A DNA stretch of 64,000 nt from Candidatus Culexarchaeum yellowstonense. GTDB lineage: Archaea; Thermoproteota; Methanomethylicia; Culexarchaeales; Culexarchaeaceae. The position numbers were made by a program, and so were the translations under genes. The notes below the pieces were generated by a model, which worked only from the letters and a program-made list of their open reading frames with translations, ran no database searches and was not told where the DNA came from. Shown piece after piece: positions 7,567-29,429 of the stretch. Numbering within the stretch: the first letter of the stretch is position 1; each line of letters begins with the position of its first letter. The stretch is from the NCBI GenBank assembly GCA_024707015.1, contig JANGFR010000004.1, positions 1 through 64,000 of the forward strand. The letters run 5' to 3'.

Positions 7567-8371
7567 ACCGAAGTTAGCCTCATTTCCTTTAAACACATCC
7601 ATGAGTTCACCATACCCAAGAAATCAAATTCAAACCTGCTTCCCTATCGCAAAAACCGCTTAACCTTGTGCTCATTGCTGGAAGCCTTCGAAAAATGGAG
7701 AAGATCAAGATTGTTATATCATGATATTTTAATGTAAATGGTAATGGGAAGAATCTAAAAATGAGCATAAAAATCGAAGGCCAACAACCATGGAATCCTG
7801 AAAAGAGAACCAACACTAACAAACAATAAACTAACCCTCCTCACAAAACCAGTAATAGGAGGAAAAGGTGATATTCAACATAACCTCAACCCAACTGAAA
7901 GAAGCCGACCCAATCCTAAAAAACACCAGTAATATCATTCTAATATCTATCAGATATCAATCAATACATTCAACTAACAATTAAACAATATAAAATCGAT
8001 ATCCACCAGATATCAAGTATAAGAATAGACCATCAGTCTCAAAACCAAATTCATGAAACCCCAAACAAACCGTAAACATAACAGCATACCCACATACGAT
8101 TTACTCAAAACACCAAACTCAAAAAAGAACTAAACCCCCATAAAAAACAATGAAACAACACCCTCCAACCAAAATGCCACCATTCTTCACAGATGAAGCC
8201 CAAGAAACCTTTCAGAAATCTACACCCAAATTCCTCAATAAAAATGAAACTCTAACACCCAAAAACAAGTCAACTAAAAACAATGTTGTAAAATGAAGAA
8301 TTAAAAAGTAGAATGTGTTGACATTAAGATAATTCAAAAGATGTGTAAGTCACTAACTTTAAAGATTTGAT
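7567..8371. other. 800-base AT-rich spacer without a convincing gene
   Basis: Only very short frames are present. One of 38 codons starts at a GTG at about 7870 behind AGGAGGAAAAG, a strong-looking ribosome binding site, but the peptide has no recognisable feature. The stretch carries two copies of a 15-base motif (7943 and 7999) and separates the P-type ATPase from the defence island. Confidence 0.5.
7943..8013. repeat. two copies of the dyad ATATC-YAYCA-GATAT
   Basis: ATATCTATCAGATAT at 7943-7957 and ATATCCACCAGATAT at 7999-8013 are 13/15 identical and each has inverted arms ATATC/GATAT around five bases. Their centres are 56 bases apart. Such paired dyads are typical of regulator or recombinase binding sites. 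They lie at the edge of the defence island and outside any gene. Their role is unknown. Confidence 0.55.
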
Positions 8372-9769
8372 TTACATATCATAATGCACATTTGACATCG
8401 ATTTACGTAAAGTTTCTAGTTTACTAGTTTTATGGCTGATTGTAGTTTGCACAATATGAATGTAATCTGTCAAAACTTTTTTCCTCAAAGTTAGATAGCG
8501 AGGTATCCCATATAATGGCGAAAGATTTAGATTGAAGACTCTTTTATCTTCTTCTCCAAAACGTTCATCTAACTCTTTTATCTTCATTAATATGTTCTGT
8601 TCTCTTAAAATTTTTTCGACATCACTTTTCCTCGTGTACTTTTCATCGATCAGCTTCTTTAACAAGAATGGTATTAGGGTAGGGTTTGCTATTTCTACAC
8701 AATAATTGTCATTTTCTTCCTTTACATTTAGAAGCCTATTATTATCCATCAGAAGAGATTCGTATGAACGTATGAATTCTAGATTTTGAGGAGCACTGAA
8801 TTTGGACAGCCTTCCAATAATTTTTTTAAAAATCTCTTTATCTACATTAAAACAATAGATCAACTTTCCCAGATTTTCATTTTTAACCATAAATGGGAAA
8901 AGTAAGGGTAAAATCTCATATGGAGAATATACAAGCCCCAAAAGTGTCTCTACTAGATTAATGTTTCCACTTTTAATGTCAACATCTTCATATGGCGTTG
9001 AATAATTATTGAAAGATATCAAGAAACAGATAAAGTAGTCTCCTTCATATCCTCCTCCATTAAGGAATATGTTCATTTCAACGGGATCTTCAGTAAAATG
9101 TAGTGGGACTTTTTTAATGTCAACAAAGCCCGTCGGATGGAAGGATATGAAACCACCTATAACTTCATATAGCTTGATTATTGAATTCAGCCATACCTTT
9201 TTAATTTTCCTCTGGTGAATATTCTCTCTCTTAATGTACACTACTCCAAAGTTATAGTTAAAAATGGCTTCAAACATACGTTTCCTATCTTTATAGGAAG
9301 ATATATGAAACCATCTGTGAGGGGACCATATACATCCATTTTTAATCGTGGATGGCGTCAGATAAAAATCGTTAATTAAATTTGCCACGTAAAGTTTAGA
9401 AAGATCACTATTTAGAGTAGCAGGTTTTATTGCACCCCATGATACCACTCTATTTTCATCTTTCCGGAAGCGGCGAATCCTGCAACTGATAATTGTTCCT
9501 TCAGCTCTAATTCCCTCATAATTCCTAACTAGATCATAAAATGTTCTAGCAAGATTATCCGAAGTTATGTCCAATGATAGTAAAATACCATATTCAGGCA
9601 AATATACTGGGAAAACATATATCTTTGACATAACTTCTTGGTGCCTTCCAAGACGGGGATTATAGACGACTTTTCCCTTGATTTTCTCCAATAAAGCTGA
9701 AGGATCAACTAAAGGATTTATTAACAGTTCAGCCCCCTCTTTTAGATCCACATTTATATTGGTATTCAT
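8372..9769 (-). CDS. unknown third component of the helicase-methylase operon
   Basis: A 465-residue soluble protein I do not recognise. No Walker, zinc-finger or nuclease motif is evident. A conspicuous segment reads GCIWSPHRWFHISSYKDRKR, the centre is aromatic-rich and beta-like, and the C-terminal 100 residues are helical and charged. Its start lies six bases after the methylase stop, so it is the last gene of a three-gene operon with the helicase and methylase. The constant spacing argues that it works with them, for instance as a specificity, scaffold or effector subunit. That role is inferred from position only. Confidence 0.75.
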   Translation of the reverse strand: MNTNINVDLKEGAELLINPLVDPSALLEKIKGKVVYNPRLGRHQEVMSKIYVFPVYLPEYGILLSLDITSDNLARTFYDLVRNYEGIRAEGTIISCRIRRFRKDENRVVSWGAIKPATLNSDLSKLYVANLINDFYLTPSTIKNGCIWSPHRWFHISSYKDRKRMFEAIFNYNFGVVYIKRENIHQRKIKKVWLNSIIKLYEVIGGFISFHPTGFVDIKKVPLHFTEDPVEMNIFLNGGGYEGDYFICFLISFNNYSTPYEDVDIKSGNINLVETLLGLVYSPYEILPLLFPFMVKNENLGKLIYCFNVDKEIFKKIIGRLSKFSAPQNLEFIRSYESLLMDNNRLLNVKEENDNYCVEIANPTLIPFLLKKLIDEKYTRKSDVEKILREQNILMKIKELDERFGEEDKRVFNLNLSPLYGIPRYLTLRKKVLTDYIHIVQTTISHKTSKLETLRKSMSNVHYDM

Positions 9770-9775
9770 TTAAAA

Positions 9776-11512
9776 TCATCCCTCATAAAACTCTATTACT
9801 TTCTCTATGGACTTCTGAAGTTGCTCATCATACTTAGTAAATTTGTGTGTTGTGAACGTATAGTAGATATCTTGTTTTTGCTTCCCGAAAACGAAAAGCA
9901 AGTCAAGATAAATTTTCCTCTTAACGAGGCCACCACTACTTTCACCTATTACTGGATAAACTGCATGCAACCATATAGGTAACTTCTTAAATACATCGAG
10001 GAATGCATATAACTTTACATAATCAAAGTGATGAAAAGTTACTAGAATCTTTCCATCAGTAGACAGTTTATTAACTGCATGATAAAAGACTGAATATAAT
10101 TCATTTTTATATTTCATTAAATCTTCCTTACGTCTCAAAACTATTTCTTTCTGTAATAATTGCGTTAAATAATCTTCGTTGATTTCATCAATTATACTCA
10201 AACTAAATAATGACAAGTCTGAATAGTACTGATAATCCCCATAAGGTGGATCTGTGAATATTACATCAAAGTTTCCTTCCATTTGTGGAAGAACATCTTG
10301 TGCCGGACCATGGAAAACTTTGAATTTTAAGTCAATTTTTTGACGGTCAATATAGTCACGTGCCCTTTTAAGCTTTCTAAAAGCTGAAATCAAATTTCCA
10401 CGTCCTAATGGTAAAAGTTTACCATTTGAAAGCCTATATGCGAGTGGGTTTAATTCTACTGGCTGGGGTGGCAACCAGTAACTTTTAATTACAAATGCTG
10501 GAATAACTTTCAAATACTTATCAGAATAGTAGGCAAGAATAGAGCAAGAGCGGAGAGAATCAGAAACTAAAACTTTAGCTAATGTCCTATAGGGATCTAC
10601 CTGAAAATGATTTAAAAAAGCCTTGAATGTTAAAAACTGGCGTTGTGTTAGCAATTCATGAAAATATCTTAATCCCGCATTTAGCAATCGGTTTGTTTCA
10701 TTTAACCTTGGTATTTCTAACGAATTATATAACATATTCTGCGGATCGCAACGAAAATTACGAAAATCCTCCATATTTAATTCTTTAATATGCCTTTCAT
10801 GACATATTGGACAATAATACTCTAAAGCATATGGTGAAAGTTTAAAGTAATCTATCCTCTCGTACTTCTTATTAAATATATTTCCACAGAATTTACAATT
10901 AGTAAGCTCATGTTCATCAGAATATACCCTTCCGCACTTCTCACAAAAATAAGTCTTCACTTTTCCATCCTTAATCTTATTAAACTTAATCTGTAACTCC
11001 CCTTTCTTATTACTCCATGCTAAAAACGTATGAATTATTAGTGCATCATGACCTTTATCACATTTAGTACTCCACAATCCAAGTAAGCTATCAGCCACAT
11101 GTTTAATTTCATGTTCAAACCAATCAAAATCGACTTGAGATAACATCTTCAAAGAATTTAAGAAGAGACATGGTATCTTATTAATATCAACCCCAACAGG
11201 TTCGTATCCTAAAATGCTGCTTTCAATTAATATAGTACCACCACCAGCAAACGGATCTAGAAGTTTTTTACCTTTGACTTTCAATGGATTGAAATACAAG
11301 CTATTAACGAAGGACCGGTAATCATCAACATCATCTAAAACTTTTAAATCGAGTTCCGTGAAAGACAAAAATAACCTAACCACACCTGAATAGCGTCTTG
11401 CCCACCACTTATGGATCTCATAGAAAGGAAGCCTTCTAGCCCACTCGAGCTCTCTTGAAAACTCATTAACGACATCTAATAGATCACTAGGAATACGGTC
11501 TATTATTTTCAA
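9776..11512 (-). CDS. DNA methyltransferase, DUF1156-like, with internal zinc ribbons
   Basis: A 578-residue amino-methyltransferase. The N-terminus (IHKWWARRYSGV, residues 33-44) matches the start of DUF1156-type adenine-specific methylases. Motif I is LLDPFAGGGT (84-93) and the catalytic motif IV is DPPYGDYQY (about 422). The insert between them carries two zinc-ribbon cysteine sets, CEKCG...CKFCG and CPIC, presumably for DNA contact. It overlaps the upstream helicase gene by four bases. In defence loci such methylases mark host DNA so that a partner helicase or nuclease complex spares it. Target base and sequence are not visible. Confidence 0.88.
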   Translation of the reverse strand: MKIIDRIPSDLLDVVNEFSRELEWARRLPFYEIHKWWARRYSGVVRLFLSFTELDLKVLDDVDDYRSFVNSLYFNPLKVKGKKLLDPFAGGGTILIESSILGYEPVGVDINKIPCLFLNSLKMLSQVDFDWFEHEIKHVADSLLGLWSTKCDKGHDALIIHTFLAWSNKKGELQIKFNKIKDGKVKTYFCEKCGRVYSDEHELTNCKFCGNIFNKKYERIDYFKLSPYALEYYCPICHERHIKELNMEDFRNFRCDPQNMLYNSLEIPRLNETNRLLNAGLRYFHELLTQRQFLTFKAFLNHFQVDPYRTLAKVLVSDSLRSCSILAYYSDKYLKVIPAFVIKSYWLPPQPVELNPLAYRLSNGKLLPLGRGNLISAFRKLKRARDYIDRQKIDLKFKVFHGPAQDVLPQMEGNFDVIFTDPPYGDYQYYSDLSLFSLSIIDEINEDYLTQLLQKEIVLRRKEDLMKYKNELYSVFYHAVNKLSTDGKILVTFHHFDYVKLYAFLDVFKKLPIWLHAVYPVIGESSGGLVKRKIYLDLLFVFGKQKQDIYYTFTTHKFTKYDEQLQKSIEKVIEFYEG

Positions 11513-14500
11513 TCACAATCACCCGGCAAAGTAGCTTTATGATCATCATCCCATAAAATCACTACATCTTCTTCGTTTTCCATAAAACTTGAACGAGTCA
11601 AATTCATGGAACCATGAATGGAAATCTTTTGTTTTCCAAATAGTAGAAGATATACTTTTGCATGAGTCAGATGGGTGGTGACTCTTATACCATGTTTTTC
11701 CAATTCGTTTATATAGGGATTATCAGGCCTTGTTAAAACTTCCACATTCACTCCACTTTTCTTACACTCCAATAGAATAGATAAACCATAATCATCAATG
11801 AAAGGAACTTTAACAATAACTTTTTCTGACTTCTTCATCAACTTTTTCAAAAATTCACCAAACCCTTTTCCGATAAAAGTCAGATGACCCCTTTTAAATA
11901 TTTTTAAAAATGTTATGGTTAAATTCCTTGAGATAATATAATTTTGCAAAAAGGGTTCGGTGCACCCTCTATAAAGTATTAAACAATCTTCACAACCATC
12001 AGCACAAAGTTTAGGTACTCCCTCTGAATGTATTATTGGCAAAAGATATTCTGACAAGTCATCACTATACTCCTCCCATTTCATTAATTCCTGAGATAAA
12101 ATATGCCTATACGTTACAATATCTATAAAATCAAGTTTAATGTGGGAATTTATTTTTTCATTTAATTCACCAATCTTCTTTTGAAGGGCAACTATTTTAT
12201 CACGCACTTCTTGTTGACTACTAAGTTTTGATAAGTAATTTTTAGAATCGCTCATTAAAATCTTAGAATCATTCTCCATCCGTTTATCATGCTTTTCCAA
12301 AAAGTCAATAGACCACTCAATGAACTCTTCCATGAACCTCTTTTCACCAACACTCTTAATCTCATTTCTTACAGTCTCAACAAGACCAATACCATCATTT
12401 TTAGATTTTTCTAACACATAAATAGAGCTACCTTTAACAAAATATGTTATTCTATCAGGGTCTACCTGAACCTTTTTTGTAATCAGAAATATGAAGAATA
12501 GATGAGCAATTGTATGAATCAGGCATTCTCTAACAAAATTGATAAATTCCATAGAATTCGTTTCAACCTTTGTAGCGTCATACTTAACGTAGTCTAATGC
12601 TGCATCGATATAAGAACCCTTTTCTAGAAGTTTTCTATACATGTAAAACTTAAACTTCAGTAAATTAACGATGTCATTACGTTCCCTCAATATATTCAAT
12701 AAAATAATGTCCAGTAACGTTTGATTAAACATGAGACAAATAAGAGAGGTTCTGGCTAAATAACCCAGAGGGCATATTTCAAATTCCCTAAGCAGATAAT
12801 CATTAAATCCTCTAGGGAGATATACGGTTACTTTATCATAAACGAACTCTACATCTTCCCGTAATTCATCATATGTCATCGTTTTCACATGATATGTGAG
12901 AGGTTCATCAACTTGAGGTAAATTTCGCACATTCATATTAACATAAAACTTAGGAAATATTCTTCTTTTTCTAATTCTACCACTCCAATGCTTATTTCCA
13001 TCACAGCCTATAACTGTACACTCAGTTTTTGCTATGGGACAGCTTTTATCAAATGGGTCCACTGATATGCAATATCCAAGAAAACATATGTAGGGGTATC
13101 TAAAGTTTAACCCCCACTTATCACCAGAATTTTGTATTTCATTATCTATACGTTGTAAATAGTTAATGGTCTTATTTTTGATAACATCATACAATCCATT
13201 GGTTACTTCAAGTTGATATAGCTTCCCAATATTTTTATAAAGCAAGTACTTATCGCCATCTATTTTTGATGTATTTATCTTCTCTGAACCATATTTTATA
13301 TATAATGGCTTTCCATCTTTACATTGCATCTTGAAAATGAATGCTTTCTCTAATGTAAGCATATCCAAGAAGTCTATTTGGGAAGGTATAAGAATATCTT
13401 TATATTTTTCAGCCTCGCCCTTAATCAAATCATTCGTTGCAACTTTCTTATAAATCTCGGATGGAAATATGTAAAAGCCTTTCTGAGGTTTTACTAACCA
13501 GAAATGTCTTGCACCAACACAACTAGTTATCTCTCTTTGAGTTCTTTCTTCGAAGGGTATAGTTATAGGCTCAAATGGTGGAGTTCGTGAAATTACGTCG
13601 CTCAAAAATTCCTCTTTCTTCGATGTTTGTGTATAAAGCTCAGCACCAATGGTAACTAATTGATCTATAAATTCATTCCCCATAAATCTGAATCCAATCA
13701 TTGACTCAACTAAATTAATCGGATGCTCCGAAAGCTTCTTATACATTTCTTCAGCCTTATAATACTTGACAAATTCCTCATCAGAAACACCATCCACCCC
13801 ATTCACTTTAGAAAGTATTACAATTTGCGGCTTAAAATACTTCACAAGTTTATAGTCAAGTTCCACTAAATCTCCTTCAAATGAGTATAGAGGATGATAT
13901 TCAACTCGAATACTACTTCTAATATCCATGAGATTTTGAATAACTTCTGAAACACTCTCTTTAATAATATCCAAATCAACTTTCTTAACTCCCTCCCTCA
14001 TTTTAAGTAACTCTAATTTAAGACGCCCAATTTTCTCCGTTAAAAGTTTCTTTTCTTTCAAGGAAAGTTTATCCAATTCATTCTCCATGCTAATCAAAAG
14101 GTTGTTAAACTCATCTATGAAAGAATTAAGTTCATTAAGTAGCCATACCCTTTCCTTCCAATACTTAATATTCTTAAATCTATCCTCCACATTTGGTTGT
14201 AAGAGAATTTGCGTTATTTTCTTTAATTCTTCTATTATATCTTTAATATCAACACTTATTCCTAAATCTCTAACAATTTGGGGTAAAATGGAACTTGTTT
14301 TATCAAGAATCATATATGCTATTTCCTTCGAGCCGCGTAATCTTAGAAGGTCCCCTCCCCTCTTTCCATAATATGCTAATGTATATAAAAGAGCTGAATA
14401 GGAAGCCACAAAAACATTTGAGTAAGATACTGGTATTTTCGGAATCTTGTTAATGTCAGTAAGCTCTCGAATCCCCTTATAAATATAGAAATATTCAAGA

Positions 14501-16290
14501 GGATTATTTCGGACAACTATTATGCAGAGTGATGACCGAAGGGTTGTTTCCTCATTTCTTCCTGCACGACCCACTCTTTGAATTATACTTTCCAGGGAAA
14601 ACGGTATGCCTGCATTAACAACAACCGAAACATTATCGTAATCAACTCCAAGCTCCAAGGTGGATGTCGTGAAAACAACGTCTATCGCGCCTGACTTTAT
14701 CCGTCGCTCCACATCAAAACGGTCCACTCTATCAGAAAAATGCACCTCCACATTCCCCTTAATAGATTCTCTTAGCAAATCAAGTTCTTCCTTTGACTCG
14801 CCTGACATCTTATACTCTTCATTATATACCCAATAACAAAAAGCGTCTTCTGGAGATAAGTCTGGATGTAAATGATCTCTTGGATCACCAAGTTTAACAG
14901 CTTCTAAAAGTTGTGTGTATATTCTCGAAATACTCCTTATACCATCCACAAAAATGAGACTTTGAAGATTCTTTTTGGTTCTAATCCTATTTACGGTAGA
15001 AAGGAAAATAGCCAACTCATGTATATATGTTTCCCAAGAGGTGAATGGATGAATTGCAATTAATAAGTATAGTTCAAGTTTATGCTCGTCTATGCCATGA
15101 GTCTTCTCATTATACACTAAATTTATGAAATCAGCCAAACTTAACCCACTAATTTCTTGAATAAATTCTTCAAATTTTGGAATAGTTGCAGATGAGAAAA
15201 CAAGACGCCCTTTTGGGGTGACGAGTGAGCGCAATATATGAACAAAATATCTTAATATCCCTGCATTTATACTTCGATATGCATGAACTTCATCGAACAC
15301 TAAGAATTTGATATTCTCAGAAAGATAACCATTTTTCCAATAAACGGGATCACATAAACGAAACTGGTAAGCCCAAATATTAGTGATTAAAATAGTTGGA
15401 GGATGTTGCTTGAAATCTTCTCTTGTTAAAGCAATAAACTTAAATGAATCATTACATTTCCGACAAAATACTTTGCCATCTTTCACTAAAAGTTTCTCAT
15501 CTTTGTGCACTGGGCACATAATCCCCCTGTATTCGTCAAAATTCCTTATCTTCCTTTTTTCTTTAACATCTCCATCATCAATACCAATACTTATATTCAA
15601 ATTCAATTCTCGATTTAAATAGTAAACTATTCTAATGAGTCGCCCCATCTGGTCAGATCCAAGCGATTTTCTCGGATAAAAAAGGACAGCAGCTACTCCC
15701 TTTCTTCCCTCCAATACACTTTTAATGGCAAAAAGCAAAATTGGGATCAGAAAAATATACGTTTTTCCAAACGCAGTTGGAGCGCAGATAACAACATTCT
15801 TATCCTCTCTCAAAAATTGTAAAATCGATAAAAACTGATACTTTGACAGCCCCTTTAATCCAGCATCGATTAAAGCTTCAATAAACTTGTCAACCAAATC
15901 TGCAGGAATTATCTTTGAAAATTCCTTCTTTAACTCCTCCAGATTCTGATCGTTTTTGCTGAAATTAACATACTCAAAAGAACAAAAGGGGCGTAACTGA
16001 AGATCAAGAGATGATTCCAAAACATACTTAGTTCCACCATACTTTATACGTATATCCGATGCCCTATAAGCAACATCCATCAATAAACTATGATACAAAT
16101 TTTGTGAAACCTTTATTACGAAACCCTCCTTTATAAGGTTTGAAAGAACTTCATCGGATATCCCTAAACTGTGAATCTCTTCATATGTTAAGAAAGTGTC
16201 CCCAATTTTACCTGTTTTCCTATATTTTTCATACTCATACTTTACTATTCTATGATATACATTACTCAAATACTTTAAATTAAATGACAT
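11509..16290 (-). CDS. DEAD-type helicase fused to DUF1998-like and phospholipase-D domains
   Basis: A 1593-residue protein with superfamily-2 helicase motifs: Walker A APTAFGKT (170-177), a zinc-ribbon insert (CPVH...CRKC), DEVH (about 330), SSAT (about 360), LELGVDY (about 538) and QRVGRAGR (about 567). A Cys-rich segment lies near 1071. The cysteine cluster CADGCEDCLILYRGC (about 1429) resembles the DUF1998 signature of MrfA and DrmB. The last 100 residues form a PLD module with one HKD-like motif, HAKVYLLLFGK...GSMN (about 1539). DISARM encodes helicase, DUF1998 protein and PLD protein separately (DrmA, DrmB, DrmC); here comparable parts are one chain. The methylase follows with a four-base overlap. 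Confidence 0.85.
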   Translation of the reverse strand: MSFNLKYLSNVYHRIVKYEYEKYRKTGKIGDTFLTYEEIHSLGISDEVLSNLIKEGFVIKVSQNLYHSLLMDVAYRASDIRIKYGGTKYVLESSLDLQLRPFCSFEYVNFSKNDQNLEELKKEFSKIIPADLVDKFIEALIDAGLKGLSKYQFLSILQFLREDKNVVICAPTAFGKTYIFLIPILLFAIKSVLEGRKGVAAVLFYPRKSLGSDQMGRLIRIVYYLNRELNLNISIGIDDGDVKEKRKIRNFDEYRGIMCPVHKDEKLLVKDGKVFCRKCNDSFKFIALTREDFKQHPPTILITNIWAYQFRLCDPVYWKNGYLSENIKFLVFDEVHAYRSINAGILRYFVHILRSLVTPKGRLVFSSATIPKFEEFIQEISGLSLADFINLVYNEKTHGIDEHKLELYLLIAIHPFTSWETYIHELAIFLSTVNRIRTKKNLQSLIFVDGIRSISRIYTQLLEAVKLGDPRDHLHPDLSPEDAFCYWVYNEEYKMSGESKEELDLLRESIKGNVEVHFSDRVDRFDVERRIKSGAIDVVFTTSTLELGVDYDNVSVVVNAGIPFSLESIIQRVGRAGRNEETTLRSSLCIIVVRNNPLEYFYIYKGIRELTDINKIPKIPVSYSNVFVASYSALLYTLAYYGKRGGDLLRLRGSKEIAYMILDKTSSILPQIVRDLGISVDIKDIIEELKKITQILLQPNVEDRFKNIKYWKERVWLLNELNSFIDEFNNLLISMENELDKLSLKEKKLLTEKIGRLKLELLKMREGVKKVDLDIIKESVSEVIQNLMDIRSSIRVEYHPLYSFEGDLVELDYKLVKYFKPQIVILSKVNGVDGVSDEEFVKYYKAEEMYKKLSEHPINLVESMIGFRFMGNEFIDQLVTIGAELYTQTSKKEEFLSDVISRTPPFEPITIPFEERTQREITSCVGARHFWLVKPQKGFYIFPSEIYKKVATNDLIKGEAEKYKDILIPSQIDFLDMLTLEKAFIFKMQCKDGKPLYIKYGSEKINTSKIDGDKYLLYKNIGKLYQLEVTNGLYDVIKNKTINYLQRIDNEIQNSGDKWGLNFRYPYICFLGYCISVDPFDKSCPIAKTECTVIGCDGNKHWSGRIRKRRIFPKFYVNMNVRNLPQVDEPLTYHVKTMTYDELREDVEFVYDKVTVYLPRGFNDYLLREFEICPLGYLARTSLICLMFNQTLLDIILLNILRERNDIVNLLKFKFYMYRKLLEKGSYIDAALDYVKYDATKVETNSMEFINFVRECLIHTIAHLFFIFLITKKVQVDPDRITYFVKGSSIYVLEKSKNDGIGLVETVRNEIKSVGEKRFMEEFIEWSIDFLEKHDKRMENDSKILMSDSKNYLSKLSSQQEVRDKIVALQKKIGELNEKINSHIKLDFIDIVTYRHILSQELMKWEEYSDDLSEYLLPIIHSEGVPKLCADGCEDCLILYRGCTEPFLQNYIISRNLTITFLKIFKRGHLTFIGKGFGEFLKKLMKKSEKVIVKVPFIDDYGLSILLECKKSGVNVEVLTRPDNPYINELEKHGIRVTTHLTHAKVYLLLFGKQKISIHGSMNLTRSSFMENEEDVVILWDDDHKATLPGDCD

Positions 16291-18140: not shown

Positions 18141-21100
18141 ATGGTGAAACATGTTTCTATTCGGGTTGCTTGGCATGATAGTTGCTGGAATGGCAAGATA
18201 TGTAAATCTCCAGAGAGAAATGTCTATTGTGTTGGAAACTATTCGCTTCTTTCTCCAAGACTACAGCGCAGAAGAGATGCTACCCTTGAAAAAATATATA
18301 GTGGTCAGGCAGTTTCTAATGTTATAAAAGAGAGAAACTATCTCCCCCCATGCTACTGGTCGATAAACATTCAAGGAGAAGATTCATTTTCAATTGAAGA
18401 TCCTCACCCTTTTTCAGATACAGAAACTTGGGGAAAAAAGTTTAGGGAAAATGTACCACCCTTGAAAGATATTTTGAAAGATCACTCAGTTTTTACATGG
18501 TGCTTTAAAATATCATTTGAAAGAGAGGACCCAAATCAGCTTTATCCGCCTATCGAGGTACTAGAAAAAAGAGTTAATGAATATTTAGAAGAACTCGTTC
18601 AAGGGAAATCTATAGTATTCTTCTATTCTAACTTCAGCAATCCAATAACTGGTGATGAGTACAAGTATCTACTGATAGGTGCTGGATTATTAAAGAATGT
18701 TGATAAACCAACGTACTATAATATACCTAAAGATCTCTTGCAGAACATACGGTCCAAACCTAAAATGAAGAACTTCCCAGAATTAGCATGGCAATTCCAA
18801 TTAACATTCGACCCTGATACGATAATTATTCTACCATATCACAGGTACCTAGAATGGATTCAGGAAAAAGATTCAATTGATGTACGTGAAAAATGGAGAA
18901 AATTAGAAGAAGTCGCCATCCCTATAGAAGAAGAAAACCTAATTCCACATTTCAAATATGTTTCAATGCACATACCACATGATAAATGCATCTATCTTCT
19001 TTACTTAATGAAGAAGTCTTTAGAAAAAATGAAAGAACATAAATTAGTAGATTATGAAGAGTTGAAGAATATTGAGAGTAGGCTGGATAAATTATTAAGG
19101 GTTGCATGGAAGGAAAAAGGCATGTTTCCAGGTTTTCCCAATGTGATTAAAGTATTTCTCAAAAATGATTTTAACCTTAAAGATGAACAATTAAAAAATC
19201 TTGTTCAAAAAATCCAAGAGTACATTAATCAAAAATTTGGGAGTTTAGAGAATTTCTTCAAAAGTCAATTGACTAGTGAATTGTCAACCAATAATCATCA
19301 GCTTAATAGGGCTTTAGGAATAATTTGTAAAAGAAAGGAGCTAATTGAGTTTCTATCTCAATTTGATTTTTCAGCAACTCAGTTTAACCGCGTTTTAGAA
19401 ATAATAAATAAGGTAGGAATAAATGAGGTAAAGAAGAACCCATATATTATACTTGAAAAATACCAATATGAACCTGTAGATGAACTTTTAATAGATGAAA
19501 GCGATTATGGTATAAGCTTATACCAGATCGATATAGCATTAATTCCAGATCCCTCCTATACTGATTGGCCTGCACTATATGATGCGCAATCACCTCAAAG
19601 AATACGTGCTGTGATCACTAAGGTATTATATGATGCGGCCTTTGAGGAGGGGCACTCTTGTTTAACACGCGACGAAATCATAAAGCGTGTAGAGGAATAT
19701 CCTCTCTACTATATTAATGCTAAACTTAAACTAGATATCGACAGACTCTTAGATTATGAAAAAGAAGCATTTTTCAGGGAGAACTTCATTATACGTGAAG
19801 CTTTGGAAAAGGAAAAAACGATATACCAATTAAAGCTTATTCGGGAAATAGAAAAGATAATTGAAGATTTTATCCTTTATATGTTAAAGAATAGGTATGA
19901 GTTATCTCAAAAGGATAAGTCAGATATAGATACGATATTAAATGAAGAATACGGTGAATGGGAAGAAAGACTTGATTTAAATGAGCGTAGAAAGCTCTAT
20001 GAGAACGCTTTAAGTAATGGTGTATTCTTTGTTTCAGGAAGAGCTGGTAGTGGAAAGACGAGTGCGATAGTACGTCTTGTTAAAAAGTTTATGGCTGATG
20101 GACATAAGCCAATTTATATCTTTACACCGACTGGGAAAGCAAATTTAGTAATTAGAAAGAGGCTCAAAGAAATAGGTGTGCGCATAGATGATAAACACTT
20201 AGTGGTATCAACAATTCATAGGTTCTTATACACCAAATTATTCGATTATATTAAAGTGGTAAATAAACGGGATAAGGATAAAATATTTTTAATCAGAGAT
20301 CTTATTGAACAAATCTTATCAGGGAAACTTGAAGTTCTCAGTCAATTTAGAAGTTTAGCTGAGCAGTTCAGATTAGGACCTAAAGTAGTCATCATAGATG
20401 AAGCATCTATGGTGGACGAAGTCTTATTGGCTTTACTTTTCTCTATGATTAGAACAGACGCTTTAAGACACTTAATCATCGTAGGTGATGAAAAGCAACT
20501 CCCTCCAATTGGTGTAGGCAGACCATTTGTAGACATCATATACTATTTGAAGAAGAACAGCCTTGAAACGCACTATATACGCCTAGAATCAAACTTAAGG
20601 TTTGACCCCTCTGCATCTATCGGAATACTTGCAGAATTATTCAGTAGCGAGAAACCACCATTTCCATCAGAAATATCCACAGTCCTGAGCAAATTAGACA
20701 ATACAGTCGAATTATTTTACTTCAAAGATAAAGACGAGCTGAAAAACATCCTTGCAAATATCTTGCGACAAAGAGGAGCTGCCGCAACCGATTCCTTATC
20801 TGAAATGTTTAGTAGCATCTTTGAAGCTAATGGTTCACTTTATCTTGATAAAGTACAGATAATATGTCCCAGAAGAGTAGGCGATTTTGGATCTATTGCA
20901 ATAAATATAGGGGTGATTCGTGATAACAAAGCTGATTTCACTCCTAGATCCAAAATCATTTGTGAAAAGAACATATATGTTGATGCTATTGACAAGGATG
21001 GAAATAAAAGACGCATTCTTGGGTTAGCTAATGGCTCCATAGGTTACATACGGCCAGATGGTGATATATATTTTGAAGATTTAGAAGATATAAAAGCTGA

Positions 21101-21845
21101 ATATAAACATGTGTATTTATCACCTATAATAAACGAGATATTTGGAGATTTCACAGTCCTTAAAACTGAGAGAGATATAGATTTTGGATATGCTATAACA
21201 GTTCATAAGTCTCAAGGAAGCGATTTCGATTATGCCATCCTTATCTTACCAGAAGTAAGTCCATTCATTACAAAGGAGCTACTGTACACCGCATTCACAC
21301 GGCCAAAATTAAAGCTTTATTTAGTTATTCACAGTAGCCTCAAAGAAGAGCTACCCATAATATTATGCCATGCTTATGAAAACTCTGCAATAGAATCAAT
21401 AAAAACTCTACTATTTGGTTATAAAGCTTCACCATTAAAACCATACATAGTCGCATTAAGAAATAATAAAACTATAGAGGTAAAATCCAAAATTGAATAT
21501 ATAATAGCGAAAGCACTTGATGAGTCCAACGTGGAATTTGAATACGAGCCTAAAGAATTTTTCGAAGAATATCACATTATACCTGACTTCAAGATATCTA
21601 TCGATGGAGAAGTCTATTACATGGAACACCTCGGTAACATGAGTAATCCAAGCTATCGAAACAGATGGTTCCAAAAATTCGAAATCTATAAAAAACTTGG
21701 AATATCGGACAAACTAATTACAACTAGCGAAAGCGAAGAAAAATCAAACCCAGAAGAAAACATTAAGAAAATAATAGATGATATCAAAGCAAAACGTATA
21801 AAAACAACTGAAGGAGGCTACTCTCTACATCACTATTACATTTAA
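18141..21845 (+). CDS. RecD2-like superfamily-1 helicase with C-terminal nuclease-like domain
   Basis: A 1234-residue protein. The N-terminus carries WHDSCWNGKICKSPERN then YCVG, a His/Cys-rich block that looks like a metal site. Helicase motifs follow: Walker A GRAGSGKT (about 633), Walker B IIDEASM (about 750), GDEKQLPP (about 783), VHKSQGSDFDYA (about 1020) and YTAFTRPK (about 1052), the RecD/UvrD order. The last 120 residues (E near 1118, PDF near 1148, YYMEHLG near 1158, then a K...Y helix) resemble a PD-(D/E)XK nuclease. It follows the HEPN gene in the same direction after 122 bases with its own palindrome. It probably unwinds and cuts DNA. Confidence 0.85.
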   Translation: MVKHVSIRVAWHDSCWNGKICKSPERNVYCVGNYSLLSPRLQRRRDATLEKIYSGQAVSNVIKERNYLPPCYWSINIQGEDSFSIEDPHPFSDTETWGKKFRENVPPLKDILKDHSVFTWCFKISFEREDPNQLYPPIEVLEKRVNEYLEELVQGKSIVFFYSNFSNPITGDEYKYLLIGAGLLKNVDKPTYYNIPKDLLQNIRSKPKMKNFPELAWQFQLTFDPDTIIILPYHRYLEWIQEKDSIDVREKWRKLEEVAIPIEEENLIPHFKYVSMHIPHDKCIYLLYLMKKSLEKMKEHKLVDYEELKNIESRLDKLLRVAWKEKGMFPGFPNVIKVFLKNDFNLKDEQLKNLVQKIQEYINQKFGSLENFFKSQLTSELSTNNHQLNRALGIICKRKELIEFLSQFDFSATQFNRVLEIINKVGINEVKKNPYIILEKYQYEPVDELLIDESDYGISLYQIDIALIPDPSYTDWPALYDAQSPQRIRAVITKVLYDAAFEEGHSCLTRDEIIKRVEEYPLYYINAKLKLDIDRLLDYEKEAFFRENFIIREALEKEKTIYQLKLIREIEKIIEDFILYMLKNRYELSQKDKSDIDTILNEEYGEWEERLDLNERRKLYENALSNGVFFVSGRAGSGKTSAIVRLVKKFMADGHKPIYIFTPTGKANLVIRKRLKEIGVRIDDKHLVVSTIHRFLYTKLFDYIKVVNKRDKDKIFLIRDLIEQILSGKLEVLSQFRSLAEQFRLGPKVVIIDEASMVDEVLLALLFSMIRTDALRHLIIVGDEKQLPPIGVGRPFVDIIYYLKKNSLETHYIRLESNLRFDPSASIGILAELFSSEKPPFPSEISTVLSKLDNTVELFYFKDKDELKNILANILRQRGAAATDSLSEMFSSIFEANGSLYLDKVQIICPRRVGDFGSIAINIGVIRDNKADFTPRSKIICEKNIYVDAIDKDGNKRRILGLANGSIGYIRPDGDIYFEDLEDIKAEYKHVYLSPIINEIFGDFTVLKTERDIDFGYAITVHKSQGSDFDYAILILPEVSPFITKELLYTAFTRPKLKLYLVIHSSLKEELPIILCHAYENSAIESIKTLLFGYKASPLKPYIVALRNNKTIEVKSKIEYIIAKALDESNVEFEYEPKEFFEEYHIIPDFKISIDGEVYYMEHLGNMSNPSYRNRWFQKFEIYKKLGISDKLITTSESEEKSNPEENIKKIIDDIKAKRIKTTEGGYSLHHYYI

Positions 21846-23053: not shown

Positions 23054-23274
23054 AGAGGGGTAGGAGGAGTATGGTTAAGTGTCCTTATTGTGGCTTTGAG
23101 GGGGAGTTTAAGAGTTTAAAGACGTGGAGATTTAGGTTTTACGATGTTGAGAAATTGGAGTGCCCGAATTGTAGGGGGATATTCAATCATTATCATGGTT
23201 TAAGTCCTAGGAGCAATAAGATGTCAGAATTCGTTATAAGGATTAAGCCTAAAACCTCTGGTGGTGTTGTGTGA
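23050..23274 (+). CDS. small zinc-ribbon protein of the RM-BrxL operon
   Basis: A 74-residue protein with CPYCGFEG and CPNCRGIF as the two halves of a zinc ribbon and a C-terminal FVIRIKPK strand. Its first ATG overlaps the AbrB stop, while an ATG at 23071 (MVKCPYCG) lies just after GGAGGAG; either could be used. Its end overlaps the GTG of the restriction-modification gene (GTGTGA). Strict coupling suggests it is a subunit or chaperone of the next enzyme, perhaps for DNA binding. Confidence 0.7.
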   Translation: MKRGRRSMVKCPYCGFEGEFKSLKTWRFRFYDVEKLECPNCRGIFNHYHGLSPRSNKMSEFVIRIKPKTSGGVV

Positions 23275-26200
23275 GCTCCCGTGTTACAACTCCCCCCGTG
23301 GATATAGATGGCATTGTAGCTTGCTTTAAGAACTCTATTATGAGGGCTCGTAGTGAAGAGGATGTTAGGGTATGGGTTTCTATATGTATTGAAGAACTTA
23401 TCCTAAAACCTTTGGGTATAATGCAAGTTGGTAAGTATGAGTATACCTTGATATCTGGTGCTAGAGTTGATGCACTTTACGGGCATGTGGTTATCGAATA
23501 TAAAGCACCAGGTAAACTCTCTACTCAAAGTGATATTCAAAGAGCTAGGGAGCAAGTTATAAGATACATAACGCAAGAGGCTGGTAACAAGGCTGAGTAT
23601 GCAAGATACTTGGGGGTTATAATTAGCGATAAGATTGCCTTCGTTAAATATGACCAAAGAACCGATACATGGATTTTGAGAGGCCCCTACGATATTAGAA
23701 GGGAAGCAATAGTTAAGTTCGTAGAAGCTCTAAGAGGTCTCAGGAGGAAGCCTCTAGATGTGGAGCATCTGCTAAGCGACTTTGGACCTAAATCTGAGGT
23801 TACAATTAAATTGGTTAGGGCATTTTATGATATGATAATCAGCCTTAAGGATGATAGTAGAGCTAAACTATTATTCAGCGATTGGATGAGGCTCTTCAGA
23901 CAGGCAACTGGATATAGACCTGAAGAGTTGGAGGAACTTCCAAAGTTAGCCTCCGAATATGGAATTCAAGGAAGCGTAAATTATGATGCATTAATATTCT
24001 CTATACACACATTCTATGCTCTACTGCTAAAGCTAATAGCAGCAGAAATAACATACCTTTATGGTGGAGGGAAATTCTACAGGTCGTATATAGCTGAACT
24101 GGATGATGCATACTCCAAAGGTGGTTTAGATGAATTAAAGAGGACTCTACAAGAACTTGAGAGTGGGGGCATATTCAAGAGGTTATTAAGCATTGAAAAC
24201 TTCCTCGAAGGAGACTACTTCTCTTGGTATTTAGATGTATTCGACAAAAACTTAGCAGACCTAATAGCGGAACTTGCTAGGCAACTATCTGATTATGAGA
24301 TTGCCACACCACAATTAGAACCAGAATTCGCAAGAGACTTACTTAAGAGACTATACCAAAACCTAGTACCAAGCGACCTAAGACATAGACTAGGAGAATT
24401 CTACACACCCGACTGGCTAGCCAACTACCTACTCGACGAAGTTGGATTAAGCTTCGAAAACCTCAACAAAATCGGCGAAGAAGACCCTCTAAAGCCCCTA
24501 AATATTAGAGTCCTAGACCCCGCATGCGGCTCAGGCACCTTCCTAGTACTCTACATAAGTAGGCTTAGAAGATACGCTGAAGAGCACTACCTAACCGATA
24601 TGCTCTTAAGGTATGTATTAGACAACGTTGTAGGTTTTGACCTAAACCCACTAGCAGTATTAACCGCTAGAACAAACTACCTACTGGCAGTAGCAGACCT
24701 CTTAGCCTACAGCACCGGAACAGTAGAGATACCCATATATCTAGCCGACTCGATAATGGTCGAAAAGCAAGGTAAAATGGTTGGAAACGTATATATTCTG
24801 AGGACTAGCGCTGGAGACTTCGAAATACCCATTAACATAGTTAAAAAGGGATTATTAACGAACGTACTGGCCGAAGTAACTAGAGGTCTTGAAAACAAAT
24901 ATGAAGCTGAAACCTTCAAGAAGAGGCTGGAATTATCCTACAAGCTTAACTCAGGAGAACTCAACACCCTAGCCGAACTTTACAAGAAACTCCTAAAGCT
25001 AGAAGAGGAGGGTAAGAATAGAGTATGGGTAGCAATAATAAGGAATGCCTTCGCCCCCATACTCAAAGGCAAATTTGACTACGTAGTGGGCAATCCACCA
25101 TGGGTTAACTGGGAAAACTTACCAGAATCCTATAGAGAAGCCAGTAAGGAACTCTGGGATAAATACGGTCTAGCAGAAATTAGGGGGAAGACGGGTCTAG
25201 GTAAAGTTAAAAGAGATCTGGCAATGCTTTTTATGGTCAGATGTTTCGACTTATACCTGAAGGAAGGCGGTAAACTAGGCTTCCTTGCACCATTCACCAT
25301 GTTTAAAACACAAGCTGGCGCAGGATTCAGAAACTTCCTAGCCAGAAAAACTAAAATCCACGTTATACATGACCTAGTAACCCTTTATCCATTTGAAGGA
25401 GCAGTAAACAGAACTTCAGCCATAGTAATTGAAAAAATCTGCGAAATAGATCCAAACAAAATACCAGATAATATGAAAGATGCCCTACACAAAGCCTTCG
25501 AGGAAAATATGAAGGGAGTAAGACACGTTATATGGATTAACCCAAGCGGCAAAGCCATACCCACAGACAAACCTTTAGAAGATGTTCTCAAAGAAACTAA
25601 GAGATACGAAGCTATTATGATCCCCCTAGAACCTAAGAAACCTGAGTCGCCATGGATGCAAATAACACCCAAAGTAATTGAAGCTGTCAGAAAATTGCTA
25701 ACTGGGCCACAGTATTATAAGGCACATGCAGGAATTGTTGTCGCCTTAAACCAGGTTTATTTTGTTCAAATAAAGGGAAAGACTCCTGAGGGGAAGCTAA
25801 TAATAACAAATCCGCCTGAGCCAGGACAAAAAAAGAAGGTAAAGCAAATGGAGGCTGTTATAGAATCAGATTTAGTATATCCACTAATAAGGGGGAAAGA
25901 TATTAAGAAGTGGTATGTGGATTTTAAGGATAGATACGTAATTTTACCTGTAGACGCTGATGGTAAAGACATTAACTCTGATGATATGAAGGTAAAATAT
26001 CCAGGCGCTTACAGCTACTTCTTTAACTTCTTCGATGACCTAATAAATAGAGGCGGAGAACCTTATAAATCGAAGCTAGATCCATATAAAAAGCTACCTC
26101 TGAACGTTGTAGAGAAAAAAGCACCGCCATTTTATTGGATATTTAATGTAAAACCAAATCTAGCACCTTATAAGGTTGTATGGAAAGAAATCGCCGGTGC

Positions 26201-26999
26201 TATTACCGGGAAGGCTGTTAGTTTTGCATGTGCTGTTATTGAACCTATAAACGGTAAACCTGTTATCCCAGATCATAAGGCTATATTAATAGTAGCTAAC
26301 AATTCTGAAGAAGCATACTATATATCAGGTTTCTTAAACTCTATTATAACAAGGGCTATTATAGCATCTTATACTTATGAATTGGGGTATGAAACTCATA
26401 TAGCTGATGTCATTAAGATTCCAAGGTTTAATCCAAATGATGATGTGCATAGGAGGATTGCTGAGCTTTCTAGGAGGGCTCATGAGCTTGCTAGATGCGT
26501 TTATGCTGGTGTTAAGCCTTATTATTGTAGGGGTATTGATGCTGAGGAGGAGCTTAAGAAGGTTGAGGGGGAGTTGGATTTGGCTGTGGCTCAGCTTTTC
26601 GGGCTTTCTAAGGATGATCTTAGTGAGTTTGAGAAGCTTATGGTTATCCTTTCTGGTGGGGAGCTTCCGGTTGAGGAGGTTGAGCTGCCTGAGGAGCCTA
26701 AGGTTTCCGTGCTTAACACTTTACTACCTCCTGATGTGCAGTCTTACATTGAGGTTGATGTTGTAAATCCATCTGGTGAAGAGCTGGAAGTGGTTTATGA
26801 GTTTCCTTGGGGTAAAGGTTCCTTCAAAATTGTTGAGGGTAAGTGTAGAATAGATGTTCCGCCGTTAAAGCCTGGGAAATATGGTGGCATTATAAGGTAT
26901 TGTTGGGGTGATGTTGAGAGGGTTATTGATGTTAATGTTGAGGTGTCGGAGCCTCCTGGTCCGAGGAGGCAGAGGAAATTGGTATTGGGTGATGGGTGA
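23271..26999 (+). CDS. type IIG-like restriction-modification enzyme (Eco57I/PglX-like)
   Basis: A 1242-residue fusion. Residues 40-110 look like a PD-(D/E)XK nuclease: E41/E42, D67 and E76-Y-K78 in VDALYGHVVIEYK. The methylase part has motif I VLDPACGSGTF (about 414) and motif IV NPPW (about 607), typical of N6-adenine enzymes of the Eco57I and PglX type. A target-recognition region follows, and the last 90 residues form a beta-sandwich-like extra domain. The GTG start overlaps the previous stop. With nuclease and methylase in one chain it could act alone, yet the downstream BrxL gene recalls BREX, where PglX lacks a nuclease. Confidence 0.85.
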   Translation: MSSRVTTPPVDIDGIVACFKNSIMRARSEEDVRVWVSICIEELILKPLGIMQVGKYEYTLISGARVDALYGHVVIEYKAPGKLSTQSDIQRAREQVIRYITQEAGNKAEYARYLGVIISDKIAFVKYDQRTDTWILRGPYDIRREAIVKFVEALRGLRRKPLDVEHLLSDFGPKSEVTIKLVRAFYDMIISLKDDSRAKLLFSDWMRLFRQATGYRPEELEELPKLASEYGIQGSVNYDALIFSIHTFYALLLKLIAAEITYLYGGGKFYRSYIAELDDAYSKGGLDELKRTLQELESGGIFKRLLSIENFLEGDYFSWYLDVFDKNLADLIAELARQLSDYEIATPQLEPEFARDLLKRLYQNLVPSDLRHRLGEFYTPDWLANYLLDEVGLSFENLNKIGEEDPLKPLNIRVLDPACGSGTFLVLYISRLRRYAEEHYLTDMLLRYVLDNVVGFDLNPLAVLTARTNYLLAVADLLAYSTGTVEIPIYLADSIMVEKQGKMVGNVYILRTSAGDFEIPINIVKKGLLTNVLAEVTRGLENKYEAETFKKRLELSYKLNSGELNTLAELYKKLLKLEEEGKNRVWVAIIRNAFAPILKGKFDYVVGNPPWVNWENLPESYREASKELWDKYGLAEIRGKTGLGKVKRDLAMLFMVRCFDLYLKEGGKLGFLAPFTMFKTQAGAGFRNFLARKTKIHVIHDLVTLYPFEGAVNRTSAIVIEKICEIDPNKIPDNMKDALHKAFEENMKGVRHVIWINPSGKAIPTDKPLEDVLKETKRYEAIMIPLEPKKPESPWMQITPKVIEAVRKLLTGPQYYKAHAGIVVALNQVYFVQIKGKTPEGKLIITNPPEPGQKKKVKQMEAVIESDLVYPLIRGKDIKKWYVDFKDRYVILPVDADGKDINSDDMKVKYPGAYSYFFNFFDDLINRGGEPYKSKLDPYKKLPLNVVEKKAPPFYWIFNVKPNLAPYKVVWKEIAGAITGKAVSFACAVIEPINGKPVIPDHKAILIVANNSEEAYYISGFLNSIITRAIIASYTYELGYETHIADVIKIPRFNPNDDVHRRIAELSRRAHELARCVYAGVKPYYCRGIDAEEELKKVEGELDLAVAQLFGLSKDDLSEFEKLMVILSGGELPVEEVELPEEPKVSVLNTLLPPDVQSYIEVDVVNPSGEELEVVYEFPWGKGSFKIVEGKCRIDVPPLKPGKYGGIIRYCWGDVERVIDVNVEVSEPPGPRRQRKLVLGDG

Positions 27000-27003
27000 T
27001 ATT

Positions 27004-28416
27004 ATGAGTGAATTGTTTAATAAGGTTAGGAAGTATTTTGGTGATTATGCTGTTGATAAGAGGCTTGCATATGAGCTTGAGTTGGCTAAGCTTCCAAGGT
27101 ATGTTGCTGAATTCTTGATTTCTGAGTTTATGAATCGTAGTGGTAATTGGGAAGCTGAGCTTAGGGATTTCATTAGAAATCACTATTATGAGCCTGAGGA
27201 GAAGGAGGTTGTTAAGCATAGGTTGGTTGTGGATGGGTTGGTGGAGCTTATTGATGAGTTGAGGGTTATCGTGGATATTGAGACGGGTACCCATGTGGGT
27301 GTTATACAGGCACTTGACATTTGGGCTGAAGTCCCCATAGATATTGTTGAGAGGAATAAGGCTACTCTGGTGACTGGTATGTGGGGTCTTATAACTCTTA
27401 TGAGGACAAATGAGGTTAAGGAGGTTTTTGGTAGACCTATAGGGGCTGCGATTACAGAGTTTCAACCTTTCCAATCACCAGACACTGACCCGAAGATATT
27501 GGAGGAGGCTAGGCAACATTTCACTTTTGATGAGTGGCTTGATGTCTTGATAAATACTATAGGGCTTGACCCCAGCGTCTATAGTCCAAGGCAAAAGATA
27601 CTTCTACTTTCAAGGTTGGTACCCGTTATTGAAGGTAATGTTAATATGGTTGAGTTTGGACCTAGGCAGACTGGTAAAACGTACCTATATAGGAATTTGA
27701 GCAACTACGTTAGGATAATATCAGGTGGCAACATATCGCCAGCAGCTCTCTTCTACAATTTGAGGACTAGGGTTCCCGGGGAGCTTGTTGTTAAAGACTT
27801 AGTTGTCTTTGATGAAGTTAGTAAGGTGAGGTTTCCAAATCCCGATGAAATGATGGGTAAACTTAAGGATTATATGGAGAGTGGTGTGTTCGAGAGGGGT
27901 GATAAGAAGGCTGTCTCCGATGCATCACTGGTGTTTATGGGTAACATATCAGTTGAAATGGTTTCCGAAGGCTATATACCCGTAGAAGACTTAACTTATG
28001 TACTTCCAGAGCCCATGAGAGACTCAGCCTTCATAGATAGGGTGCATGGACTCATACCAGGATGGGAACTTCCAAAAATATCTCAAGCAAAATATCACCT
28101 ATCAAAAGGCTATGGGATAGCTTCAGACTACTTCGCAGAAGCCTTACACTCCATGAGGAAGGAAAGCCTTGTCAGCATGGTCTCCAAACACATAGACCTC
28201 TCAGAAAACTTCAAGATAAGAGATGAAAAGAGCGTGAAGAAGATCATGAGCGGCTTACTAAAACTCCTATTCCCAAACAAAACATTCGATAAAAAGGACA
28301 TCGAAAAAATAGCAAACGCAGCACTCGAATATAGGCAGAGGATAAGAGACTGGCTACACAAAATAAACCCCGGAGAATTCCCAAAAGAGAAACTTGCTAT
28401 CACGGTGAGAACTTGA
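27004..28416 (+). CDS. brxL: BrxL-type AAA+ ATPase, short form (TIGR02688-like)
   Basis: A 470-residue protein. ATG 27004 follows GGTGATATT. Residues about 215-225, FGPRQTGKTYLYR, are the Walker A region; VVFDEVSKVRF (about 266), MKDYMESGVFERG, and FMGNIS are the conserved BrxL blocks, followed by DRVHGLIPGWELPKI. The C-terminal Lon-like protease domain of full BrxL (about 650-700 residues in enterobacteria) is missing, as in the short TIGR02688 forms. BrxL is a DNA-translocating ring ATPase required for phage exclusion in several BREX types. BrxC, PglZ and BrxA/B are not present here. Confidence 0.85.
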   Translation: MSELFNKVRKYFGDYAVDKRLAYELELAKLPRYVAEFLISEFMNRSGNWEAELRDFIRNHYYEPEEKEVVKHRLVVDGLVELIDELRVIVDIETGTHVGVIQALDIWAEVPIDIVERNKATLVTGMWGLITLMRTNEVKEVFGRPIGAAITEFQPFQSPDTDPKILEEARQHFTFDEWLDVLINTIGLDPSVYSPRQKILLLSRLVPVIEGNVNMVEFGPRQTGKTYLYRNLSNYVRIISGGNISPAALFYNLRTRVPGELVVKDLVVFDEVSKVRFPNPDEMMGKLKDYMESGVFERGDKKAVSDASLVFMGNISVEMVSEGYIPVEDLTYVLPEPMRDSAFIDRVHGLIPGWELPKISQAKYHLSKGYGIASDYFAEALHSMRKESLVSMVSKHIDLSENFKIRDEKSVKKIMSGLLKLLFPNKTFDKKDIEKIANAALEYRQRIRDWLHKINPGEFPKEKLAITVRT

Positions 28417-29429
28417 CAGTAATACATGATATCATTTCAGGTTTTGTAAGATTAGAAACTGATTTAAGAATTAGCGGTCCTCCACCATCCCTACAGATTG
28501 ATGTATATGGATGGCATAATTATAACGATAAGATTTCACATATCATAATTAATCTTAACGCTAAGATTTGGGGAGTCATCATAGGCTCCACGAGTGCAAC
28601 AATAGTTCTGAAGCCGCCACCTGGACGAAGTGGTCTCACGCTTCCAATACCTCTTCCAAGTGACGTGATTAGGATTATAGAAGGCGAAAGAGTGAGAAAA
28701 AGTGGAGATGTAGAAGTAGAATTGCTAATAACATGTTATTACGTAGGGTTACCCACAACATTATCTTATTCTTCCGCATTAACTGTAAGTGGACCGCATA
28801 ATTACGATGATAAGTTCACTGTAAGTCTTGTTGAATGGAAGAACGCGCTTGGACTTAAAGATTTTGAACCATTGTTAGTAAGTAGAAGTTCTGTTAGTAA
28901 ACTAGATGAGCTTAGACATAAATGGGGACTTTTTACACATGAAGATGTCCTTATAAGACTTACTGAGTTATACGAAGGTGTAAAAATAGAAAGACCTTAT
29001 GAATTATTGTTCACAGATCCGGAGATTAAGACTATAAAAAGCAAGCTTAGCTCTCTTGTGGAAAGTGGTATGTGGAGTGAAGTATATGCGGTAAGCTTAT
29101 ACCTTGATCATAGTGGTGCTGAATATCTAATGAAGTTAAGAAAGAAAGGTGCTCATATAAAGCTCTTAACAAGGAAACCTGACAAAAAAGAGTATATAGA
29201 TGCAATAAAGTATTTGAGGGACAACTATGTGGAAGTTAAATTTAACAATATGGCCCATGCAAGATTCATAGTATTCGATGAAGATGTAGCCATAGTTATG
29301 ACAGCTGACCTCGACGTTAATGGACTCGATAACCAAAGGCAAATCGGAGTCTATATTACGGATAGAGCTACTGTAAAGGCATGTAAAGCATTCTTCAATA
29401 AACTATGGGAAGAGTCCGAGCCCTCTTAG
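28413..29429 (+). CDS. PLD-like C-terminal protein coupled to BrxL
   Basis: A 338-residue protein starting at a TTG that overlaps the BrxL stop (TTGA). Residues 1-130 are beta-rich with no family I know; PPPGRSG is prominent. Residues 205-335 resemble a PLD-type fold: a strand-helix unit (YAVSLYLDHSGAEYL), then MAHARFIVFDE followed by MTADLDVNG. The HKD motif is altered to H-x-R, so nuclease activity is doubtful and it may bind DNA or phospho-groups. DISARM carries a stand-alone PLD protein (DrmC), making this a functional parallel. Confidence 0.65.
   Translation: MTVIHDIISGFVRLETDLRISGPPPSLQIDVYGWHNYNDKISHIIINLNAKIWGVIIGSTSATIVLKPPPGRSGLTLPIPLPSDVIRIIEGERVRKSGDVEVELLITCYYVGLPTTLSYSSALTVSGPHNYDDKFTVSLVEWKNALGLKDFEPLLVSRSSVSKLDELRHKWGLFTHEDVLIRLTELYEGVKIERPYELLFTDPEIKTIKSKLSSLVESGMWSEVYAVSLYLDHSGAEYLMKLRKKGAHIKLLTRKPDKKEYIDAIKYLRDNYVEVKFNNMAHARFIVFDEDVAIVMTADLDVNGLDNQRQIGVYITDRATVKACKAFFNKLWEESEPS

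Follow-up and report, generated by a model that had tools for sequence, protein, structure and literature searches.

The window analyzed here, the first 64,000 nucleotides of contig JANGFR010000004.1 of the archaeon Candidatus Culexarchaeum yellowstonense (assembly GCA_024707015.1), encodes at positions 11509-16290 of its minus strand a 1593-amino-acid (aa) protein that combines a YprA-family superfamily 2 (SF2) helicase, an MZB (DUF1998-like) module and a phospholipase D (PLD)-type nuclease domain in a single chain. With a probability of roughly 0.6, we read this protein as the helicase-nuclease of a restriction-modification (R-M)-like defense locus that, as far as we have searched, is specific to Thermoproteota, and as a member of a YprA-family clade that is still undescribed. 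The protein contains these domains, groups with archaeal relatives in one clade, lies in an operon with a DNA methyltransferase inside a defense island of low guanine-plus-cytosine (GC) content, and keeps the conserved H-x-K...N residues of its PLD motif.

The open reading frame (ORF) extends from an ATG at 16290 to a stop codon ending at 11509, and the plus strand of the same interval is crowded with stops. A sequence-only reading of this DNA had proposed a single 1593-residue chain with SF2 helicase motifs at this position, without giving its strand; both the chain and the motifs hold up. The helicase core (RecA1 and RecA2, residues about 130-640; 14371-15903, minus) contains motifs I (PTAFGKT, residues 171-177), II (DEVH, 333-336), III (SAT, 367-369) and VI (QRVGRAGR, 571-578), and gives Pfam matches to DEAD (7e-16) and Helicase_C (4e-13), both above the curated cut-off. 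RecA1 includes a zinc-binding insert (CPVH...CRKC, residues 259-279; 15454-15516, minus), visible in the motif table and in the alignment, of which C259 and C276 are nearly invariant across the clade. By profile search as well as by tree, the core is closest to YprA/MrfA: when a profile of the window's clade was compared with solved structures, YprA/MrfA was the best match (6znp, 8e-42) and DruE the second (6e-34). Upstream of the core, residues 33-66 (16093-16194, minus) tentatively form a winged-helix-like stretch (AbiEi_4, E 0.055, below the cut-off); an N-terminal winged helix-turn-helix is also present in Dpd helicases (PMC12458937).

Helicases of the YprA family are already known from DISARM, Dpd and Druantia, all of them systems of phage defense. 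Family placement was assessed with IQ-TREE, using 45 rows and 393 alignment columns from RecA1 and RecA2. The references came from annotated plasmids and genomes and represented Dpd (L155, L160, L171), split Dpd-like loci (L158, L170), BRIGADE-like loci (L154, L156, L157), ARMADA II and DruE III (L173 and L174, from a Zorya-Druantia-ARMADA array), DISARM (L181, with C5 methylase, DrmA, DrmB and DrmC; L182-L186, with DrmA/DrmB-like pairs) and YprA (L187, from the window's own genome, L164 and others). The window protein, 11 archaeal relatives and L041 form one clade (support 98/96) that is nested among the YprA helicases, with Lhr outside; DISARM (100/100) and Dpd (98/91) each form a clade of their own. 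Two discrete characters agree with the tree. The RecA1 zinc insert, placed between motifs I and II, is common to Dpd and DISARM, and the window protein lacks the 600-800-aa insert between RecA1 and RecA2 seen in BRIGADE, ARMADA and Druantia, with 204 aa from motif III to motif VI as opposed to about 730-840 aa in Druantia III, ARMADA and BRIGADE, where BrxA-like and other inserts occupy this region. Judged by its sequence, the protein is a member of an undescribed Thermoproteota clade within the YprA helicases, close to DISARM and Dpd. The legend to Fig. 1 of PMC12458937 (2025) mentions uncharacterized clades of the YprA tree without describing them there, and the window's clade is probably one of these (Bell et al., PMC12458937).

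The homolog search covered a sample of 398 genomes from the host's phylum, Thermoproteota, together with plasmid and viral collections. Matches at E<=1e-15 were found in 17/398 genomes, the host included; besides the host, 12 genomes have family members (L027-L029, L031-L039), one has a decayed copy (L030) and three have distant helicases (L040-L042). The decayed copy (L030:7006-7652, genome G044) shows 62% amino-acid identity over 168 residues in interrupted frames. The member L044 is annotated as Thermoprotei archaeon. Scans of viral contigs gave no member of the window's clade, the plasmid matches were all distant helicases of Dpd, BRIGADE and other kinds, and a genome-contig scan on one generic helicase motif returned mostly Lhr helicases. 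Close to three family loci we also observed mutually similar proteins of 119-156 aa that look EVE-domain-like by eye (L027:1476-1901, L031:16300-16659, L036:3591-4061).

Regarding gene organization, ten of the eleven relatives with a complete helicase encode that helicase (685-1034 aa) and an MZB-PLD half (701-971 aa) in neighboring genes, and several of these pairs overlap by a few bases. The fused form is found in this family only in the window and in L035 (1677 aa), and the tree requires two changes to explain it; fusion is the exception within the window's clade. These data, together with the fusion already described for DruE of Druantia III (PMC12458937, PMC13192584), correct the idea that a single-chain helicase-DUF1998-PLD protein is unprecedented.

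The MZB/DUF1998-like module (11956-12543, minus), recognized through the alignment, the Pfam match of L032 and hhalign, comprises H1259-x3-H1263, GIGL at 1300 and a Cys4 cluster (CADGCEDCLILYRGC, residues 1429-1443; 11962-12006, minus) identified in the motif table. Approximately 125 aa separate GIGL from the Cys cluster and interrupt the module. The alignment of 13 C-terminal halves presents a conserved chain, HTLAH - E...GGLG - C.DGC..C....GC, and the same layout is found in MrfA (HA..EH - YD..PGG.G - C.C..GCP.C) and DrmB (HTLSH - GSLGG - C...C); L036 and L037, unlike the window and most relatives, have no Cys cluster. An additional Cys-rich segment, GYCISVDPFDKSCPIAKTEC (residues 1070-1098; 12997-13083, minus), stands out in the alignment by C and G positions that hardly vary. 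In Pfam, DUF1998 is now PF09369, MZB, with a cut-off of 24.2 bits, and the homolog L032 scores above it (30.1 bits, E 8e-7), with the other members below. Given the signature and the L032 score, the Cys4 module that accompanies YprA helicases on the same chain or in an adjacent gene is present. Profile comparison, which the earlier reading had proposed with DrmA, DrmB, DrmC and MrfA, gave matches of the MZB half to DrmB (E 3e-6) and YprA (8e-5), as well as to the C-terminal halves of split Dpd proteins (7e-6), all of them confined to the part from H-x3-H to GG.G. DUF1998 had been sought at residues 1400-1500; its signature begins upstream of that span, with H-x3-H already at 1259-1263, and residues from about 1483 onward are PLD.

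This PLD-type nuclease domain (residues 1483-1583; 11542-11844, minus) was detected by Pfam PLDc_2 at 1.8e-10, above the curated cut-off, and PLDc_2 was found in 12/13 homologs. In a PDB profile search the best match of the PLD half was 1byr (4e-17), a 155-residue single-HKD endonuclease, and this half also matches DrmC/DpdK models and single-HKD nucleases. The HxK...GSMN motif (HAKVYLLLFGKQKISIHGSMN) covers residues 1543-1563 (11602-11664, minus). As had been noticed from the sequence, there is a C-terminal HAK...GSMN motif and just one HKD half, though without the Asp of HKD: in the signature HxK(x)4D...GSxN the window has H, K, G, S and N, and not D. Its motif also contains a 3-residue insertion. 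Across the 13 homologs, window included, H, K and N are invariant; G-S is kept. With a single HxK motif per chain, dimerization for PLD catalysis is plausible.

The helicase-MZB-PLD gene is the first of a tightly spaced operon, followed by a DNA methyltransferase gene and an orphan gene for a 465-aa protein (8372-9769, minus). The methyltransferase (578 aa; 9776-11512, minus) contains HKWWARR, DPFAGGGT and DPPYGDYQYY as well as Cys pairs, and its TTG start and the helicase stop share 4 bases (TTGA). We call it DUF1156-like on the basis of weak NCBIfam and PADLOC matches of the window methylase and a weak Pfam match in the homolog L031. A methylase of the DPPY or DPFxGxG type adjoins 12 of the 13 family loci, with the exception of L036, within the stretch fetched, and its type tracks the subclade of the helicase: the window, L031, L034, L035 and L039 all have the long HKWW type (1e-32 to 1e-47).

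For the 465-aa protein we found no Pfam, PADLOC or NCBIfam match and no full-length homolog among the 398 genomes, and its AlphaFold model is of low confidence (mean predicted local distance difference test score, pLDDT, 32.4). Many family loci carry an orphan of 418-473 aa, mostly without mutual sequence similarity; BLAST, phmmer and hhalign among these third proteins of approximately 420-470 aa paired only L029 with L033 and L031 with L039. The locus is variable, because a same-genus genome (G004) retains the final 74 codons of the gene for this protein beside unrelated genes, an SbcC-like ATPase first. The match (8142-8593 against L191:45-511) covers the 74 codons at 95% and, including the 3' flank, has 91.6% DNA identity; by this comparison, the junction inside the gene is likely a scar of island exchange.

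The surrounding island has a GC content of 0.33, compared with 0.40-0.45 outside, and further defense genes lie within 15 kb. These are a 1234-aa RecD-like helicase of the candidate defense family PDC-S68 (18141-21845, plus; 1001 bits), three overlapping genes at 23271-29429 (plus) for a type IIG restriction-methylase (PADLOC, 1320 bits), BrxL (TIGR02688, 583 bits, above the cut-off) and a DrmC-like PLD protein, and a GmrSD/DUF262-type, HEC-05-like protein (30146-31780, minus). The trio looks like a small separate BREX-like operon.

According to the mechanism that we propose, the adjacent methylase would mark host (self) DNA, and the helicase would load on unmarked invading DNA offering single-stranded or replicating ends. 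It would then translocate under an OB/MZB canopy, as in MrfA, DrmAB and DruE, and the C-terminal PLD, paired with the PLD of a second copy, would cut the strand. The 465-aa protein may be a rapidly evolving subunit for sensing, specificity or regulation. As a tentative possibility, the family could represent a Thermoproteota-specific R-M-like class, built from a YprA helicase, a covalent PLD, a DUF1156-like methylase and an interchangeable, fast-evolving orphan of 420-470 aa for setting specificity or sensing infection.

Several observations weigh against this interpretation. The deep branch that makes the window's clade sister to DISARM plus Dpd has modest support (84/82). The DUF1998-like Cys cluster proposed in the sequence-only reading stands at sequence level, through signature, L032 and hhalign, and yet MZB (PF09369) gives no Pfam score in the window protein alone; the AlphaFold model built for the 763-aa C-terminal half together with one homolog is also of low confidence (mean pLDDT 32.7). 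Two points of the mechanism are among its weakest. One is the part assigned to the 465-aa protein, for which sequence comparison gave no link to the ~420-470-aa proteins of the other loci. The other is the HKD Asp, missing in the window copy alone and present in 12/12 other homologs.

This last point, along with the 3-residue insertion, would suit a variant in which the locus works as proposed and the PLD is catalytically dead, serving in DNA binding or dimerization while another nuclease of the island cuts. DrmC is non-essential in DISARM (PMC9142583), and DruE has an inactive PLD beside the active one (PMC12458937). However, the catalytic His, Lys and Asn are among the invariant residues and G-S is kept, and we consider a dead PLD rather unlikely. 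One could also argue that the protein is a housekeeping DNA-repair helicase-nuclease of the MrfA type and not a defense protein, given that YprA/MrfA is its best solved-structure match. This seems improbable, since a canonical YprA-like protein (MZB at 53 bits) is encoded separately in the genome, the distribution is patchy (about 13/398 genomes plus one decayed copy), and the gene sits in a low-GC defense island with a methylase partner in nearly all family loci.

The sequence-only reading had suggested a DISARM whose A, B and C parts are fused into one polypeptide. As a functional analogy this is fair: the parts are the same (helicase, DUF1998 module, PLD nuclease and methyltransferase), the MZB half matches the DrmB profile and the PLD half DrmC/DpdK models. 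The best PADLOC match of the protein is also a DrmA model (90.6 bits); we rejected a DISARM label on this basis, as the model, PDLC02570, also matches in genomes with ordinary YprA, such as that of B. subtilis, and is therefore not diagnostic of DISARM. Membership in DISARM, in contrast, is quite improbable. Under the model used, approximately unbiased (AU) tests rejected grouping the window with DISARM DrmA (p=0.0002) and, marginally, the clade with DISARM (p=0.042), and the clade profile gives just 6-17 bits on six DrmA-type helicases, whereas Dpd and BRIGADE reach 100-190. The window keeps both the SAT and the QxxGRxGR form, which are absent in 6/6 DrmA-type helicases. A DruE-like effector of Druantia III is scarcely credible: DruE is the one protein already described as joining a helicase, an MrfA-like Zn module and a PLD in a single chain (PMC13192584), and it is the second-best PDB match, but grouping the window with DruE/ARMADA was rejected at p=1.5e-8, the large RecA1-RecA2 insert is absent and the operon has no DruH-sized neighbor. 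Placing the window inside Dpd was rejected more weakly (p=0.014), and the clade as sister to Dpd was not rejected (p=0.24).

Read as the helicase-nuclease of an R-M-like locus, the protein contributes an archaeal branch to the neighborhood of DISARM and Dpd, a region of the YprA tree for which the published label is only 'uncharacterized' (PMC12458937). Inside one clade, the helicase and MZB-nuclease halves toggle between one and two genes, and covalent PLD attachment occurs outside Druantia. A thermophile-type single polypeptide may offer a model for helicase-nuclease coupling in the YprA family.

Among known systems, DISARM (DrmA-DrmB-DrmC plus DrmM) resembles the window in that a single locus brings together a helicase, a DUF1998 module, a PLD nuclease and a DNA methyltransferase, and in its RecA1 zinc inserts. 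Its parts are on three genes, whereas those of the window are in one ORF, and DrmA has diverged motifs and a clade of its own with which the window does not group. DrmAB has been described as autoinhibited, with 5'-overhang DNA activating it and methylation repressing it (PMC9142583). MrfA/YprA shares the core helicase and the MZB module but has no RecA1 zinc insert, nuclease domain or methylase; MrfA moves on single-stranded DNA (ssDNA) under an OB-CON-DUF1998 canopy, as summarized in PMC12458937. Dpd (DpdJ-DpdK) shares the RecA1 zinc insert, a single-HKD PLD partner and split helicase/C-half forms. Two Dpd-like plasmid loci with 7-deazaguanine or Dpd genes, from Deinococcus (L170:8407-14518) and Halorientalis (L158:7332-12250), have the helicase and the MZB-like half on two genes, as in DISARM. 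Dpd differs in its 7-deazaguanine genes and separate PLD, where the window has a DNA methylase and a fused PLD; no 7-deazaguanine DNA-modification genes (DpdA/TGT and others) were found among the flanking proteins scanned. Single-chain helicase-Zn-nuclease proteins are also known in ARMADA, but with other nucleases. DruE is likewise a single chain with an SF2 YprA-type helicase, an MrfA-like Zn module and a C-terminal PLD nuclease; it is dimeric, loads on 3' ssDNA and cleaves long DNA, its nuclease being located in the PLD part (PMC13192584). It belongs to another clade and differs from the window protein in its large RecA1-RecA2 insert, two PLD domains, DruH partner and lack of a methylase.

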